Of a DNA stretch of 64,000 bases, positions 38,671-63,911 are shown in pieces (position 1 is the first letter of the stretch; every line of letters starts with the position of its first letter). The translations under genes were made by a program, and so were the position numbers. Under the pieces are notes generated by a model. That model saw only the letters and a program-made list of their open reading frames with translations. It was not told the origin of the DNA and did no database searches. The stretch spans positions 1,424,275-1,488,274 of the forward strand of contig OZ014418.1 of NCBI GenBank assembly GCA_963965975.1. The letters are read 5' to 3'. This DNA is from Xestospongia bergquistia (taxonomy: Eukaryota; Porifera; Demospongiae; Haplosclerida; Petrosiidae).

Positions 38671-38929
38671 AATGTCCCTGTAATATATTCTTAATGACTG
38701 TGGAGTGTATTTTGTTATTAACAATGCTAAGTATCATTATTAATTCCATTTCATATTAAAGTATGGTTTTCTTTGCAGGCTACTTAAACATTTTCCTCTT
38801 AAACCTTAAATTTGTATGGATGGGCCTGGCTTAACATTCTATATTATTTTACATTTAAAACTGGCCAGTTCCAGTAATTTAAATAGATTTTTTAAAAACA
38901 AAAATATGTAAATAGATTATGAAAAAAAA
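38671..38929. other. AT-rich spacer downstream of the DRC4 fragment
   Basis: May include the 3' flank of the duplicated DRC4 segment. Nothing else recognised. Confidence 0.5.
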
Positions 38930-39300
38930 TCCTTGTGTGTTGCCCAAACGATTCCTACTCGCTCACCCACTCAGGCTTCCACTTAGGCTCCAGGATTCCC
39001 TGCTATTGCTAGCTGGGACCGCCACCTGGCTTGGTAACCCTCGTCCGAAGACGAGGTAATCCTGGCTGGAGCATCGCCCTAACTTAAAACCAGCCGTACG
39101 GGATTCCAGCTCTTAGGGAATGTCGCATTCAGGAACCGGGAACTACAAATACACCAGCCTCATCTCGTTTAAAGGGAGACTACCAGCCCTATCCTAGTCG
39201 GCCTTTCGGATACTCCGTAGAGTATGCTGGTAACCATCTCAGAGGTCTGATGCATTGCAGAACGCTGGCCCACAACACACTGGCACTCATGACTGTTTTA
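38930..39300 (-). ncRNA. GC-rich structured island, candidate Pol III RNA or SINE
   Basis: A sharply GC-richer block in AT-rich DNA without an open frame. On the minus strand it contains stable hairpins: 39056-39039 (CCTCGTC, TTCG loop, GACGAGG); 39225-39210 (ATACTC, TACG loop, GAGTAT), itself enclosed by a 7-bp stem (39232-39226 with 39187-39181); and 39095-39064 (CCAGCC/GGCTGG). An 8-bp pairing of 39065-39058 with 38997-38990 encloses the first hairpin. Both tetraloops are of the UNCG class with a C-G closing pair only on the minus strand. A run of eight T (38939-38932, minus strand) follows, as a Pol III terminator would. I do not recognise the family; it could be a SINE or a decayed RNA gene. 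Confidence 0.45.
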
Positions 39301-39599
39301 ATTTCTTTTTATATGTACGTCAGATTTTTCCTTCATGCTCTTGTGGGGCGCGTCGATCAGCGCTATGAATCTCATTAACGATAGTTCTAAATCGATGGAG
39401 TAGGAATGAACTGAAACTATATTTTAAAGGTCAGGAATAAAAACTAGTCTTATTTAAACAAACTAGAACAATACTAATCCTATTAATTTTTTATATTAAG
39501 CCACTCACAATTCAAATTACATGTTTACACTACATCAAATGCTAAGCTATCACATTCAAAATGTTTTAAAAAGGAGACATTTTAAACATCATCTAACTT
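39301..39599. other. Spacer between the structured island and the repeat array
   Basis: Begins with a short GC-richer stretch (GGGGCGCGTCGATCAGCGC, about 39345-39363) that may belong to the island; otherwise AT-rich. No gene seen. Confidence 0.4.
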
Positions 39600-40670
39600 C
39601 TACTTTTTTTATGAAGTTAGCTATATAGGTCCTTGTTAAGTGACATTATTATTACTGCTCAAAAGCGTTGCATTTCATATTTAAAAATATTTATATAATG
39701 GCCTTTGTTCTACTAATAAATGTACATGTAAATTAAAGAATCTGTTTAGTTTTTTACAGACTTTGACATCATTTCTGAACACAAACAATTACTCTATTTA
39801 ACAAGGACCTATATAGCTAACTTCTTAAAAAATTTGAAGTGATTTCGGTACCTATCATCTTCGCTCATTTTTAGCTCAATACCATGGACCAAAAGTTTAA
39901 AAATTGAGAATTTGGTCCATGTCATCAAATTGCTTAAATTTTTTTGTGGAGTTAGCTCTATAGGTCTTTGTTAAGTGGCATTAATATTACTGCTCTAAAA
40001 TGGTGCGTTTCATATTTCAAAATATTTATATAATGGCCTTTGTTCTACTAATAAATGTACATATAAAATAAAGAATCTGTTTAGTTTTTTACAGACTTTG
40101 ACATCATTTCTGAACACAGAAAATTACTGTACTTAACAAGGACTTATATAGCTAACTTCATAAAAACTTTGAAGTGATTTTGCTACCTATCATCTTAGGC
40201 CAAATTTTGACTCAAAACCCCAGGTCTGGAGCCAAAAATTGAAATTTGGTCCATGTCGCCAAATCATTTGAAATTTTTTATGAAGTTAGGTATATAGATT
40301 CTTATGAAGTGACATTAGTATTACTGCTCTAAAATGTTGCATTACATATTTAAAAATATTTATGAAGTTAGGTATATAGATTCTTATGAAGTGACATTAG
40401 TATTACTGCTCTAAAATGTTGCATTACATATTTAAAAATATTTATATAATGGCCTTTGTTCTACTAATAAATGTACATGTGAATTAAAGAATCTGTTTTT
40501 TTTACAGACTTTAACAACATTTCTGAACACAAACAATTACTCTACCTACAAGGACCTGTATAGCTAACTTCATAAAAATTTGAAGTAGTTTCACTACCTA
40601 TCATCTTAGCCCATGTTTTAGCTAGCTTAATATCGTGGACCAAAAGGTTAAAAACTGAGACTATTGACCT
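39600..40670. repeat. Tandem array of ~340-bp units, each with inverted ends
   Basis: Three units (starting about 39610, 39950 and 40280). Each opens with ATGAAGTTAGCTATATAGGT and closes about 210 bp later with its complement (CCTATATAGCTAACTTC). A linker follows that itself folds (TGGACCAAAA against TTTGGTCCA). Inside all units is AATATTTATATAATGGCC. The third unit carries an additional ~83-bp direct duplication (40278-40445). No coding capacity. Confidence 0.9.
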
Positions 40671-51013: not shown

Positions 51014-51137
51014 CTTCTATTTGGAGAATCAAAATTCACCTAACGGATAATTAGAAATTAGAATATACGGAATTACTAGTAGATAAAAGTTCGCAGTAAA
51101 AGTGCTGTACTTACAAATTTATTGTAAAAGTGGAGAT
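51014..51137. promoter_or_regulatory. Bidirectional promoter region of DLST (-) and semaphorin (+)
   Basis: Only 124 bp separates the two start codons, so both 5' UTRs and core promoters must overlap here, unless the semaphorin has an upstream non-coding exon. No TATA box is evident. Confidence 0.6.
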
Positions 51138-53519
51138 ATGATGCGTTTAAACGGATCTTTATTAATACTTCTTCTATCGATTACTAATGTTTTAGCTTGT
51201 GACGAGTCTCCTTTATGTGAAGATGTTCCGTATGGTAGAATATGTACTAGATTCTCTCCGGATCTCATCACTATAGCTGATGATGCACTCTTGCTGGTGG
51301 CCACCAAGAATAATCTTTATTCATTTAACACTCTGCCAAGGTTGGAACTCAAACAGCACGAATGTATCAAGCCTAGCAATGCTTCAATAGAGCAATGCTT
51401 GAGAGATAATTCTCAGCCCGAAAGCGAATGCGTCAACCTCGTCAGAATATTGCAGCAAATACCTCAAGATGCATTACGTGGAAAGACAACTTTGGAGGAC
51501 AAATTCAACGATACCATTCTGGTATGTGGCACTAATGCATTCAATCCTAAATGTACTGTGCACAAACGCACTAATATCAAAGAATGGAGCTACCTAACTG
51601 GTCTTACCACTGTAGATGATGGCTTTAGCCCCTACTCAACAAAGTTGCATAGTATTGGTTTACTAGCAACTAATAGGAAATTTTATACTGGTTCATTCTT
51701 TGGTAAATTTAACACCAAGAGAAGAGTTGCAGTAGCACCACAACCTCTTATGGGAGATTCTACGTTTGTCACCTCTACACTTGAAAACAGTCCTTTATGG
51801 CTGTCGCAACAAGTTGGAACCAGGTTCATTTCCCTTTACGAAATAGGAGAGCACGTTTACTATTTTGCCCGAGAGCCTGCATTTGAAGTGAATCGAGGCA
51901 AAACAATCACTTATTCTCGAGTAATACGAATTTGTAAAACTGATGAAGGAATAACCGACACGACTCAATTTATACGATTTCGAACCTTCCAGAAAGCTAG
52001 GATGACTTGTCCTCATGTTGTCAATAACAATGCACCTAAATATTATTATGATGATGTTTCATCAACTTACCTTCATTGGCCAGAGAATTCTCAATTACCT
52101 GTACTTTATGCGACATTTTTATCTGCTGACAATGGTCCAGAAGGATCAGCAATTTGTAAGTTCAGTTTTGATCCCAGTAAATCAGAAAGTCTTGTCAAAG
52201 GATTTCAAGATGGAGTGTATTATGTACTGGATAATAATGATAGATTGACAGAAGAAACCGAAGGACCATTTGCTTGTCCAGGAAGTCCAGGCAGAAACCG
52301 TACAGATGATGAGGCCAAGAAATATCAGCTCATTAAAGGTGACGCACTGCCAATTGGCGGTGGTGCTTTGTTTACAGTTGACGGAGAAAGCTATACTCAG
52401 ATTGCAGTAGATGTGTTTACCTATAATAGGGAAACGTATGAGGTAATATATGCTGGTACTAATAAAGGTTCTGTAAAAGCTTTCATTCGTAATACTGGCA
52501 ATAGTGGTTCCCCAACAGTGCTTAAAGTCTATGAGCCAGCCACTAGTGGCAATCCAATTAATCAACTAATACTGAATATATCAAATGAAAATGGAGTCCG
52601 AAGACTATATGTAACTGCTGAAAATCTCCTTGTTGATATTAGTCTTGGCAACTGTTCTAAGTATTCATCTTGTGTGGAATGTCTAGAATCCAATGATCCA
52701 TATTGTGCTTGGAATAGTGCCGACAATAATTCATGCATTAACAAACTGCTTTACAACTATACTACTAAGATTTCAGAAGCCATAAAGCCACCTTCTAATC
52801 TTACAGACTTTTGTGGAGTACTACCAAGCACAGTCATTAAGACTACAACCTTCATGTCTTCCACCCCTACAAAGACAACTAGAACTTATACTACATATTT
52901 CACTACAACTACTACTATTAATACCTGTACATTAAATGCTGGGATTAAAACTATCTTACCTATACCTAGTACTACTAGTAGCAGTACTCTCGTTGTGATT
53001 CCAACATTAAGTGCAAGACCGTCAGTTAGAGGTGTTGAAACTTCACCTAGCAAGCCAGCAATAGGACAGTTGGTGGGTTCTTTAGTAGGTGGTCTGCTGG
53101 TTGGTTTTATTATTGGTATCATTGTATGTTTTATTGGACTCGCTTTGAAAAGAACTTTTATGAAAGATAACAGTTCTGCACCAAGAACGCCTGATCACAG
53201 TTACAATAATGGAAATGGATCTGTTGGACAGTATGCCATTACAGTAGTCCTTCCAGAAGGTCACGAATCAGAAAAAAGTGGCGATGTTCCTCCCCCTCCA
53301 CCTCCCCCATCTGTATCTCCACCATTAGTAATGGTAGACAGTGAATTAGAGGATGATGCTATAAGTGATTTGCCTACAAGCGGTCCACCAAGTCGTTCTA
53401 ATAGTGGAAGGAATCATTGGTCTAAACCAAGAGGAAGGACAGAATCTACAAGATGGTTGAGAGCGAGTGAATCAGAAGCTAGTACTAATGGAACAGAGTC
53501 TCCTTTGTCACCATCATAG
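51138..53519 (+). CDS. Transmembrane semaphorin, intronless (793 aa)
   Basis: One uninterrupted coding exon. I start at ATG 51138, which gives a signal peptide (MMRLNGSLLILLLSITNVLA); the open frame upstream lacks another ATG. A sema domain covers about residues 30-500, with hallmarks such as ILVCGTNAFNPKC, the SVATTD-like middle region, FFLREPA-like YYFAREPAFE, SRVIRICKTDEG and LLVDISLG. A PSI domain follows (C506 to about C559, CVECLESNDPYCAW). Next come a Thr/Ser-rich stalk (probably O-glycosylated), a Gly-zipper membrane helix (about 645-670, LVGSLVGGLLVGFIIG), and a ~120-residue cytoplasmic tail with a seven-proline run near 718-724 that could bind EVH1 or SH3 domains. Semaphorins signal through plexins in cell guidance and adhesion. 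The class cannot be set by eye; there is no Ig or thrombospondin repeat. Confidence 0.9.
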   Translation: MMRLNGSLLILLLSITNVLACDESPLCEDVPYGRICTRFSPDLITIADDALLLVATKNNLYSFNTLPRLELKQHECIKPSNASIEQCLRDNSQPESECVNLVRILQQIPQDALRGKTTLEDKFNDTILVCGTNAFNPKCTVHKRTNIKEWSYLTGLTTVDDGFSPYSTKLHSIGLLATNRKFYTGSFFGKFNTKRRVAVAPQPLMGDSTFVTSTLENSPLWLSQQVGTRFISLYEIGEHVYYFAREPAFEVNRGKTITYSRVIRICKTDEGITDTTQFIRFRTFQKARMTCPHVVNNNAPKYYYDDVSSTYLHWPENSQLPVLYATFLSADNGPEGSAICKFSFDPSKSESLVKGFQDGVYYVLDNNDRLTEETEGPFACPGSPGRNRTDDEAKKYQLIKGDALPIGGGALFTVDGESYTQIAVDVFTYNRETYEVIYAGTNKGSVKAFIRNTGNSGSPTVLKVYEPATSGNPINQLILNISNENGVRRLYVTAENLLVDISLGNCSKYSSCVECLESNDPYCAWNSADNNSCINKLLYNYTTKISEAIKPPSNLTDFCGVLPSTVIKTTTFMSSTPTKTTRTYTTYFTTTTTINTCTLNAGIKTILPIPSTTSSSTLVVIPTLSARPSVRGVETSPSKPAIGQLVGSLVGGLLVGFIIGIIVCFIGLALKRTFMKDNSSAPRTPDHSYNNGNGSVGQYAITVVLPEGHESEKSGDVPPPPPPPSVSPPLVMVDSELEDDAISDLPTSGPPSRSNSGRNHWSKPRGRTESTRWLRASESEASTNGTESPLSPS

Positions 53520-61489: not shown

Positions 61490-62919
61490 TTATGGTTTTC
61501 TGGCTGGTTTGGTAGGAATGCCTCTGATAGCTTTGACTGTTTTGAGTCGTCTGTTGATGATAATTAATATAACCACGACTCCAATAAAACTGACAAGGGA
61601 AATAGCAGCTAGTAATGTAAGAACGATAATGGTGGCTGTTAAATGCATCTCTGTTTTTTCAGAAGCAGAAGGTCCTACTGGTTCATCAGTCATAGCTAGA
61701 GAAGGAGAGAGAGAGATACTTTTAATACAGTAGCTAGTTCAGGGATTTTCTCTTACTTCTTTTAGTTGGTAATGTATATAGTTGATAATTTATTGCCATT
61801 TGGTTTACTAATACGGCAATGTCTGAATCTGATAATTTCGTTGATGGTTGGTCGCTATCAGAGTTGACGTTTTTGTCCATATTTGTTAGAGTGAGAGTCA
61901 GGACAGTAGCATTTCTATAATAATAGATAACCCCTTTAATGATGTGTTATTAATGTATCTATTGTTGAAATATAAGGCTATCTTAATTAGTTTGTGTGCG
62001 TGTGTATGTGTATCCATTCAAAATCACATATCAATTTTGCATCATCTTATACTGACCATCCATTGTTCATTTCTATTCATTCAATTATTCTATTCCAAAC
62101 TTCATCCATTGCTGACTGTCATCTGTCCATTTAACTATCTTAATGTACATCTTTCATTTCTATCCATCCATTCACCTCCAATCCATTTCTACTTACAGAG
62201 ATGATGATTTATCAGCAGTAATTTCCACATCATCTAAAGATACCTGCTGATCTTTCAGTATACTCATTAACTCCAATGAGAACTCATCCCATTTTGCTTT
62301 GACTTCCTTATAAGGTACATTTAACACCAATGCTAAGTTCTTGGTGATATCTCCAACTGCTGTCGGTTGTGTCTGAGGGTTGCTAGGTGGGTTAGTCCTG
62401 TTGCTAGGCAACTGTGATGATGGTGGAGATTGTGTGGGCATGTCATTATGTGTTGGCATTTTGGGAGGTAGAGTGACTATATTAATATTGTTATCTGGTG
62501 ACATTGTAGGAGTGACCATATTAATGTTATCTGGTGACATTGTAGGAGTGACCATATTAATGTTATCTGGTGACATTGTAGGAGTGACCATATTAATATT
62601 GTTATCTGGTGACATAGTAGGTGTCCTTTCTATAAACAAAGTTAAAAGAGTCTAATGTATAGTATACAAATACTGAAATAGACATTACAATATTGTCTTG
62701 TTAATGTGACAAACATTTGATATGAATGGTGCTCAACTTGTTCAGACAAAACAAAAGATCATTTTGTCCATTTGTTGCATTTGATTATGGTAGATTTATA
62801 AATTTTATCATATTAATATAAACAACAGAAGCACATGATGTAATACATGTGGTCAATCCTGCTGTTGCATGTACTAATACCCACAAATTTTTATCTGTGT
62901 CTCTGCATTCACTCTGGCT

Positions 62920-62969
<50 letters not shown>

Positions 62970-63911
62970 CTAGCTCTCTCTCTCTCTCTCTCTCACCTTT
63001 TTCACATATGGGACAGCATTCTCCTTCTGGTATATAATAGCTTACACCATCATCACACTTTGGTGTATCACACATTTTCTCAGCACAAGATATCTCTCCA
63101 TCTTCACATCTACAACGACGACAAGGACCTGGTTCCCATCTCTGTCCTTCTTCATATTTAGTTCCTGACTCTGACATACAACCTGACAGTGTATCACCTG
63201 GATTATCATTATCTTTAGGAGTGAACACATTTGAAGGTTCAAAACACACAGGGCAACATTCTCCCTCAGGTATGTAAGTGACAGAACAGTCACTTAGCTG
63301 GGTACAGTTCTTATATGTGCATCGAACACCTTCTGGTGTACAAATACATGTTTTACATGGTGTGTCATTCCATGTTTCATTGTAAGAGTGTAAAGTGCCC
63401 TCATAGTTACAACCTGTAATAGAATGAGAAAAGTGTGATGAAGATAAAGTGAAAGTTTTTATAAAAGGACATTTAAATTTAACTATTGTGAGAAAGCCCT
63501 TATTCTAATACTTAGTGTATTTTTAACCTCTGTATAGAGACACCTTTATATTAAAGAAAGTTCCCAAGCTCTTAAATTGTCTGCTCTAAAGAAGTTTTGC
63601 TGAATAAGGTTGACAATTTCTTTGTACATGTACTCAAATGCTATCATGTACCAAAAATAACTCAACAATAAACGTACTTCTCTCACAGTGATATTCATGA
63701 CAGCATTTTCCTTCATTTTCATTAGCTATTTCTACCATAACTAGTTCACTAAACTGTGGACATTGTGGTGGTCTAGCACAGAGTGATATATTACAAACAC
63801 ATCGTCCATTGATTGGACAACAGTCGTCATAAAATGATGGTCCTTCTTCAAAATACATTCCTGCAGGACAACCTTGTTCTGCCACTTGAGGAGGACACTT
63901 ACATTTCTTTC
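61490..63911 (-). CDS. Single-pass membrane protein with VWC-type cysteine repeats (3' part)
   Basis: Minus-strand exons 63911-63678, 63413-62997, 62629-62197, about 61915-61757 and 61695-61490 (stop); more exons lie right of the window. The first exon carries a Cys-rich module (CPPQ, DDCCPINGRCVCNISLC, GKCCHEYHC). The second holds two von Willebrand factor C-like modules, each ending IPEGECCPVC or IPEGECCPIC, with CKTCICTPEGVRC and CRRCRCEDGEISC cores. The third begins with an imperfect repeat of TPTMSPDN(N)INMVT, then a Pro/Thr-rich linker and a folded segment. The fourth continues that segment (NATVLTLTLTNMD), perhaps a SEA-like membrane-proximal domain. The last exon gives one helix (IIVLTLLAAISLVSFIGVVV) and a short basic tail. 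VWC modules often bind BMP-type ligands, so a surface modulator is possible; no orthologue is recognised. Confidence 0.75.
62485..62629 (-). repeat. Coding minisatellite (39-42 bp) in the VWC protein
   Basis: Four copies of a unit encoding PTMSPDN(N)INMVT at the start of the exon. Copies differ by an in-frame AAT (one Asn) and by synonymous or single changes, as in a recently expanded in-frame repeat. Confidence 0.85.
62929..62994. repeat. (CT)n tract at a splice donor of the VWC gene
   Basis: Two (CT)n runs separated by GGCTAG directly follow the donor of the 63413-62997 exon (CTCACCTTTTTC on the plus strand). On the coding strand the intron therefore starts GTGAGAGAGAG. Confidence 0.85.

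Follow-up and report, generated by a model that had tools for sequence, protein, structure and literature searches.

A candidate family of class-3 RNA polymerase III genes for a structured RNA in the sponge Xestospongia bergquistia

What does a short GC-rich block without a long reading frame encode in the genome of the sponge Xestospongia bergquistia? The block lies at positions 38930–39300 of a stretch of 64,000 nucleotides (the window; contig OZ014418.1, positions 1,424,275 to 1,488,274), and it was pointed out in a first-pass annotation made from the letters of the window. Its basic description was borne out: GC content is 0.53 in the block, 0.31 in the flanking 1 kb on either side and 0.33 in the whole window, and no ORF of at least 100 aa overlaps it. 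We consider it likely that the block is a member of a family of some 300 class-3 RNA polymerase III (Pol III) genes, and that it encodes an unrecognised structured RNA of ~355 nt.

The predicted gene and its copies

The predicted noncoding RNA, ~355–359 nt long, occupies 38926..39284 on the minus strand, with its start (~39284) placed from the TATA spacing and its end placed inside a T-run. The block as originally delimited covers the RNA and misses the promoter, which falls just outside it at 39305–39379. All further elements are on the same strand: a distal promoter element, GTTAATGAGATTCAT (39365..39379), a spacer that varies in sequence and length between copies (39351..39364), a PSE-like element, CGCCCCACAAGAGCATGAAGGAAAAATC (39323..39350), and a TATA box, TATAAAAAG (39305..39313), the first base of which is 29 nt from the predicted start. 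The ends of the RNA form a predicted terminal stem, P1, with its 5' strand, GUGUGUUG, at 39273..39280 and its 3' strand, CAACACAC, at 38935..38942. The inner pairings that had been read on the minus strand were located exactly. Hairpin 1, with a 6-bp stem and a C(UACG)G loop (39210..39225), is nested in a 7-bp stem (39226–39232/39181–39187), and hairpin 2, with a 7-bp stem and a C(UUCG)G loop (39039..39056), lies inside an 8-bp long-range pairing (39058–39065/38990–38997). The eight-T run that had been reported, resembling a Pol III terminator, is present at 38922–38929, and each of 21 aligned copies ends in a T-run, which in some is interrupted.

Elsewhere in the window, a 335-bp tandem repeat (39604–40363; 2.3 copies, 84% matches) begins ~225 bp past the promoter of the gene. 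Pfam domains mark two ORFs, one with Sema and plexin-repeat (PSI) domains at 51102–53519 and one with a VWC domain at 62785–63249.

A DNA search of the genome, with 419 first-look candidates, returned 40 near-full-length copies with 98–100% identity and three shorter matches. With at most 3 mismatches allowed, a 31-base segment of the 5' body matched 296 times in the 146-Mb genome (164 on the plus and 132 on the minus strand), a 35-base segment of the 3' body 311 times, and the consensus of the PSE-like block 303 times. These counts take in partial copies, such as L093, with the promoter and only the first 101 body bases, and L105, a 3' piece only. The reversed control patterns for the 5' body, the 3' body and the promoter block gave 0 matches each, genome-wide. 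Because promoter and body are about equally numerous, the copied unit is the promoter plus the RNA.

Some of the clusters are tandem arrays, for example one with three equal 4315-base steps on contig C1 near 5.72 Mb, and a fragment of a DDE_1 transposase (L040:3487–4131) lies inside the tandem 4315-bp unit that carries the RNA gene. Intact genes at L011, L020, L021, L022, L027, L028, L031–L034, L039 and L040 are followed, after a few hundred bases, by remnants of the 3' part in like orientation, which are 77–100% identical where BLAST matched. Fragments in L028 and L034 share, as read by eye, 3' flanking DNA with intact genes, so that they look like DNA duplications. The first-pass annotation had proposed a genome-wide copy count, and had named many dispersed, degraded copies as an observation that would speak against an RNA gene. 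The count gives about 300 dispersed copies; degraded 3' fragments do exist beside intact genes, but they are a small part only, and most copies are full-length and near-identical.

Conservation was assessed in an alignment of 74 copies at 71 loci (the window, L009–L036, five copies in L039–L040, and L046–L085), 60 of the loci having been chosen by body match and 11 by promoter match. In this set, which is biased toward good copies since they were picked from search matches, mean pairwise identity per column is 98.0% in the transcript, 97.9% in the TATA box, 93.1% in the PSE-like element and 92.3% in the distal element; it is 74.7% in the leader from TATA to start, 49.5% in the spacer and 47.3% in the 3' flank. 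Conservation is confined to the promoter elements and the transcript. Among 700 random copy pairs, mean body identity was 0.975–0.977 in all four classes of flank identity, from <30% to >70%, by a crude flank comparison (ungapped, up to 40 bases); the lowest body identity, 0.66, was owing to defective copies. Bodies that stay near-identical at loci whose age has erased the similarity of the flanks point to purifying selection and/or gene conversion. Upkeep by one or both, which are not separable here, is the best explanation for the near uniformity of the family.

Of the 74 copies, 33 belong to subfamily A and 40 to subfamily B, with one unclear. The subfamilies differ in the leader and in the bases at the two ends of the RNA. 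Copy L073 combines an A-type start with a B-type end, and this chimera indicates that exchange between the subfamilies occurs.

Comparison with the Pol III promoters of the same genome

Rfam models gave 2 matches for U6 in the genome, 4 over the cut-off and one below it for RNase P, 1 over the cut-off for MRP, one gene for SRP (C8:7416732), and twelve over the cut-off and one below it for U2. Upstream of the two U6 genes, of three RNase P genes and, in part, of MRP lies the element CCCACAA(n7)AAAACAA or a variant of it, together with TATAAA. The unvaried form is present at RNase P, at one U6 gene and at Y-RNA-like genes; the PSE of U6 gene L038 is diverged, and the MRP promoter fits less well, with CTCACAA and without AAAACAA. 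Relatives of the distal element were found upstream of two U6 genes (TTAATGAAATTCAT and TCAATGATATTCAT) and at three RNase P genes (TTAATGATATTCAG and TTAGTGATATTCAG), and a TTAATGAnATTCAT-like element lies upstream of U6 and of three RNase P genes, and is not clear at MRP. U6 and MRP have 29 nt between TATA and the Rfam start, and RNase P has 35 nt. The upstream region of the SRP gene holds no such promoter block, and six U2 genes have a related yet different one.

Within the family, a loose promoter match (at most 11 substitutions) is present at 71 of 71 loci, in 74 copies, 11 of the loci having been selected by promoter. In 73 of the 74 copies the 3' stem is followed by TTTT, with an interruption or a delay in a few (e.g. 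L028 and L061); in copy L082 the 3' stem was not located. The family genes resemble the U6 genes in having a distal element, a PSE-like element (close in one of the two), a TATA box, 29-nt spacing and a T-run. Unlike U6, their RNA is ~355 nt long, has no sequence relation to U6 by Rfam, and is represented by ~300 copies against 2 U6 matches. The RNase P and MRP genes share the promoter design as well, closely for RNase P and partially for MRP.

Type 3 promoters can drive either Pol II or Pol III, the TATA box being decisive in humans (PMC9841428); the rule in this animal may differ. From the comparison with U6, RNase P and MRP, together with the T-run, we infer the use of Pol III, and the family very probably consists of class-3 genes, with type 3 promoters. 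Where the first-pass annotation had offered a lineage-specific Pol III RNA, its Pol III part gains support from the shared type-3 promoter design, the T-run and the structure of the copies. One family gene, seen as a promoter match, lies ~1.6 kb from one U6 gene on the same strand (C5:8814930 and C5:8816535).

A PSE probe, TCCCACAA-N7-AAAACAA, derived from RNase P and one U6 gene, was run genome-wide. With at most 1 mismatch it gave 115 matches against 47 for the reversed control, a background so high that one-mismatch matches are of little value alone. Ten matches are exact. Five of them are circular (three RNase P genes over the cut-off, one RNase P match below it and one U6 gene), and five are independent, comprising four before Y-RNA-like genes and one family promoter without a body.

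The four Y-RNA-like genes, L107 (C14:1060784 and 1061329), L108 (C14:1164171) and L109 (C2:10600826), have the layout GGTGGTCC ... TGACCAC, TGATCAC or TTGACTTCC, followed by a T-run. They are assigned by sequence reading, Rfam listing L109 alone, at 25.3 bits against a gathering score of 38. These genes on C14 and C2 have the same PSE, and three of the four have TATAAA. Y RNA differs from the window RNA in being shorter and essentially one long stem, and there is no BLAST match between the two.

Fold of the predicted RNA

According to the first-pass annotation, strand, fold and terminator agree on the minus strand. Fold energy favours that strand, though only modestly: the block has z −1.91 on the minus strand (4 of 100 shuffles as good) and z +0.16 on the plus strand (58 of 100). 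Three transcripts of 357–360 nt (the window copy and the commonest A and B sequences) gave z −1.07 to −1.54 in the sense orientation, with 21 to 46 of 300 shuffles as good, and z −0.2 to +0.4 in antisense. On energy, the sense values come close to a fold no better than shuffled sequence, which had been named as an outcome that would count against a structured RNA. Fold energy by itself is weak evidence, near chance.

The outermost aligned pair of P1 is U-A in 26 of 50 distinct sequences, G-C in 22 and unpaired in 2, with G-C in subfamily A and U-A in subfamily B. This compensatory change between the subfamilies supports P1; it could be a single event. A two-sided change is seen in only 1 of 118 predicted pairs, and a shuffle control reaches the observed pair count in 500 of 500 runs, the pair types in 482 of 500 and the number of cells in 0 of 500. 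Of the substitutions at paired columns, 17 of 24 keep the pair, where 12.4 are expected (p 0.00035 with the consensus fold, p 0.00015 with the MFE fold of the window copy). This excess finds no support when the MFE fold of any of four other copies is used instead (p 0.06, 0.66, 0.67 and 0.67), and we therefore treat the inner fold as hypothetical. Covariation from the decayed 3' remnants was dropped because these look like pseudogenes.

The loop of hairpin 1 stays within the UNCG class, being UACG, or UUCG in six sequences from a set of loci that had been selected because an exact match to the 5' body or to the promoter was missing there. The UUCG loop of hairpin 2 is present in the window copy, as the first-pass annotation had read it, but it is a minority form in the family: the loop is CGAAGA in 64 of 74 copies (CCUCG-CGAAGA-CGAGG), and the longer-stem form occurs in 10 of 74, 7 of these with UUCG. 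The CGAAGA loop looks like an inverted UUCG loop minus two bases. As none of nine decayed remnants that span hairpin 2 has CGAAGA, this form seems to be derived and to have spread to most genes of both subfamilies.

Identity and proposed role

At the gathering score, Rfam matched no family in the window and gave 0 matches at eight further family loci. With E values up to 10 admitted, there was only Qrr in the block (E 3.5) and RT-2 beside it (E 3.2), both far under their cut-offs. ARAGORN found no tRNA in the window. The window RNA matches neither the RNase P and MRP models (RF00009 and RF00030), although these RNAs are likewise large and structured, nor the SRP (7SL) model (RF00017). Separate genes for RNase P, MRP, SRP, U6 and U2 exist in the same genome, so the family RNA is none of these. 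The earlier suggestion of a derived RNase P/MRP or SRP RNA consequently falls away, the block having no Rfam match to them even at E up to 10. Exact RNA patterns gave 0 matches in viral contigs (two patterns) and prokaryotic genome contigs (one pattern), both collections without animals. In the literature, no title among the matches listed describes such an RNA, most subscription papers and preprints being outside the scope of the search, and passages of a sponge RNA-seq paper contain nothing on one (PMC9385839).

Could the RNA be 7SK of this organism, too diverged for Rfam, which would bind HEXIM and hold P-TEFb inactive? 7SK has a type-3 promoter and a terminal stem, and its repeated HEXIM-binding site is the motif GAUC. 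The type-3 promoter, the terminal stem and the similar length (the Rfam 7SK model has 331 positions) are compatible with such an identity, and the genome contains a HEXIM gene (E 4.5e-31). The 7SK model (RF00100) matched neither the family RNA nor anything else in the genome; its control set also matched nowhere, so this does not establish that 7SK is absent from the genome. We nevertheless regard 7SK as quite unlikely. The transcript of the window copy, which is the copy searched for the motif, lacks GAUC, the consensus fold has no hairpin directly before the U-run, and a 7SK with ~300 intact genes would be far out of the ordinary; a separate type-3-like candidate also exists at C6:673196 (L115). 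A SINE, or another retroposed element derived from a Pol III gene, would account for hundreds of dispersed copies with a T-run end and for the 5'-truncated fragments. Retroposition leaves a promoter upstream of the start uncopied, whereas here the promoter travels with the body: promoter matches (303) are as many as body matches (296 and 311), and the promoter was present in 6 of 7 loci (L099–L105) fetched by a 3'-body match without a listed exact promoter match. Since the fragments in L028 and L034, moreover, look like duplications of DNA, the SINE that the first-pass annotation had entertained is very improbable.

The promoter and RNA could also form a mobile or selfish unit of DNA, whose spread through transposition or gene conversion brings the host no benefit. 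High copy number, clusters and the tandem 4.3-kb units with their DDE_1 fragment fit this idea, as does the position of the genes: on C3–C9, 39 of 42 exact promoter matches, among the matches listed, lie <1 Mb from a contig end. The bias persists by cluster (24 of 26 within 1 Mb, against 22% expected; binomial p 5e-14; C3–C9, among the matches listed), and 32 of 35 full-length search matches outside C1 and C2 are no farther than 1 Mb from a contig end. The test excludes C1 and C2, which are the longest of the contigs with a known length and also have numerous clusters in their interior. The measure refers to contig ends, which may or may not be chromosome ends, and the window copy lies 1.46 Mb from a contig end. 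A freshly copied block, however, would not be expected to have a saturated spacer amid conserved elements and body, and flanks differ between clusters, with no common ends in the aligned copies, which makes a selfish unit unlikely. The same end bias and the dispersal in clusters would suit genes that matter as DNA, for example as boundary elements for Pol III factors near chromosome ends, the RNA being incidental. The transcript is the most conserved part, and a stem of the RNA has a compensatory pair change; we find this last alternative extremely hard to credit.

The best reading is that the family encodes a candidate lineage-specific, structured RNA made at high dosage. In the mechanism that we propose, the PSE-like element would serve as the binding site of SNAPc, and the TATA box as that of TFIIIB. 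Transcription by Pol III would begin ~29 nt downstream of TATA, at the first bases of the terminal stem, and end in the T-run, which would yield an RNA of ~355 nt, closed by P1 and branched inside. As its role we propose an abundant structural RNA of an RNP, with many genes to supply the dosage, as has been described for the maternal U1 and U6 genes of zebrafish. Chromosome 4 of zebrafish is reported to carry large numbers of maternal U1, U6 and 5S gene copies interspersed with protein genes (PMC11075544). This block is a precedent for many snRNA gene copies in one genome, and it differs from the family here in that its RNAs are known and lie in one chromosome region, whereas the sponge RNA is unrecognised and its genes are spread over many contigs.

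Subfamilies A and B differ at both ends of the RNA yet keep the terminal stem. We tentatively raise a wider possibility, in which we place less than even confidence, namely that the family belongs to a major undescribed RNA machine of an animal lineage, with ~300 homogenised U6-type genes largely near chromosome ends, whose RNA would be made in bulk, and that A and B are possibly developmental forms, oocyte and somatic for example, of a single essential RNP. Few class-3 Pol III RNAs are known (U6, 7SK, RNase P, MRP, Y and U6atac), and they usually have few true genes. If our reading is right, the family would add a further member, of the size of RNase P RNA, with ~300 promoter-bearing genes, an apparent very high dosage and no assigned job.

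The genome-specific PSE can in addition be used to track down missing Pol III RNAs, and it has already led to the Y-RNA-like genes and to other candidates. L115 (C6:673120–673700) has a type-3-like arrangement of a one-mismatch PSE, a TATA box, ~217 bases closed by GGGGGA/TCCCCC, and T5, and is possibly another Pol III RNA gene. A second unassigned set of small repeats, L111, L113 and L114 (C3:5.83 and 6.77 Mb, C10:4.04 Mb), has PSE variants such as TCCCACAATAGCTCAAAGACAA and the box TATATAA, after which a related sequence of ~120 bases follows; L112 has the PSE variant with different DNA behind it.
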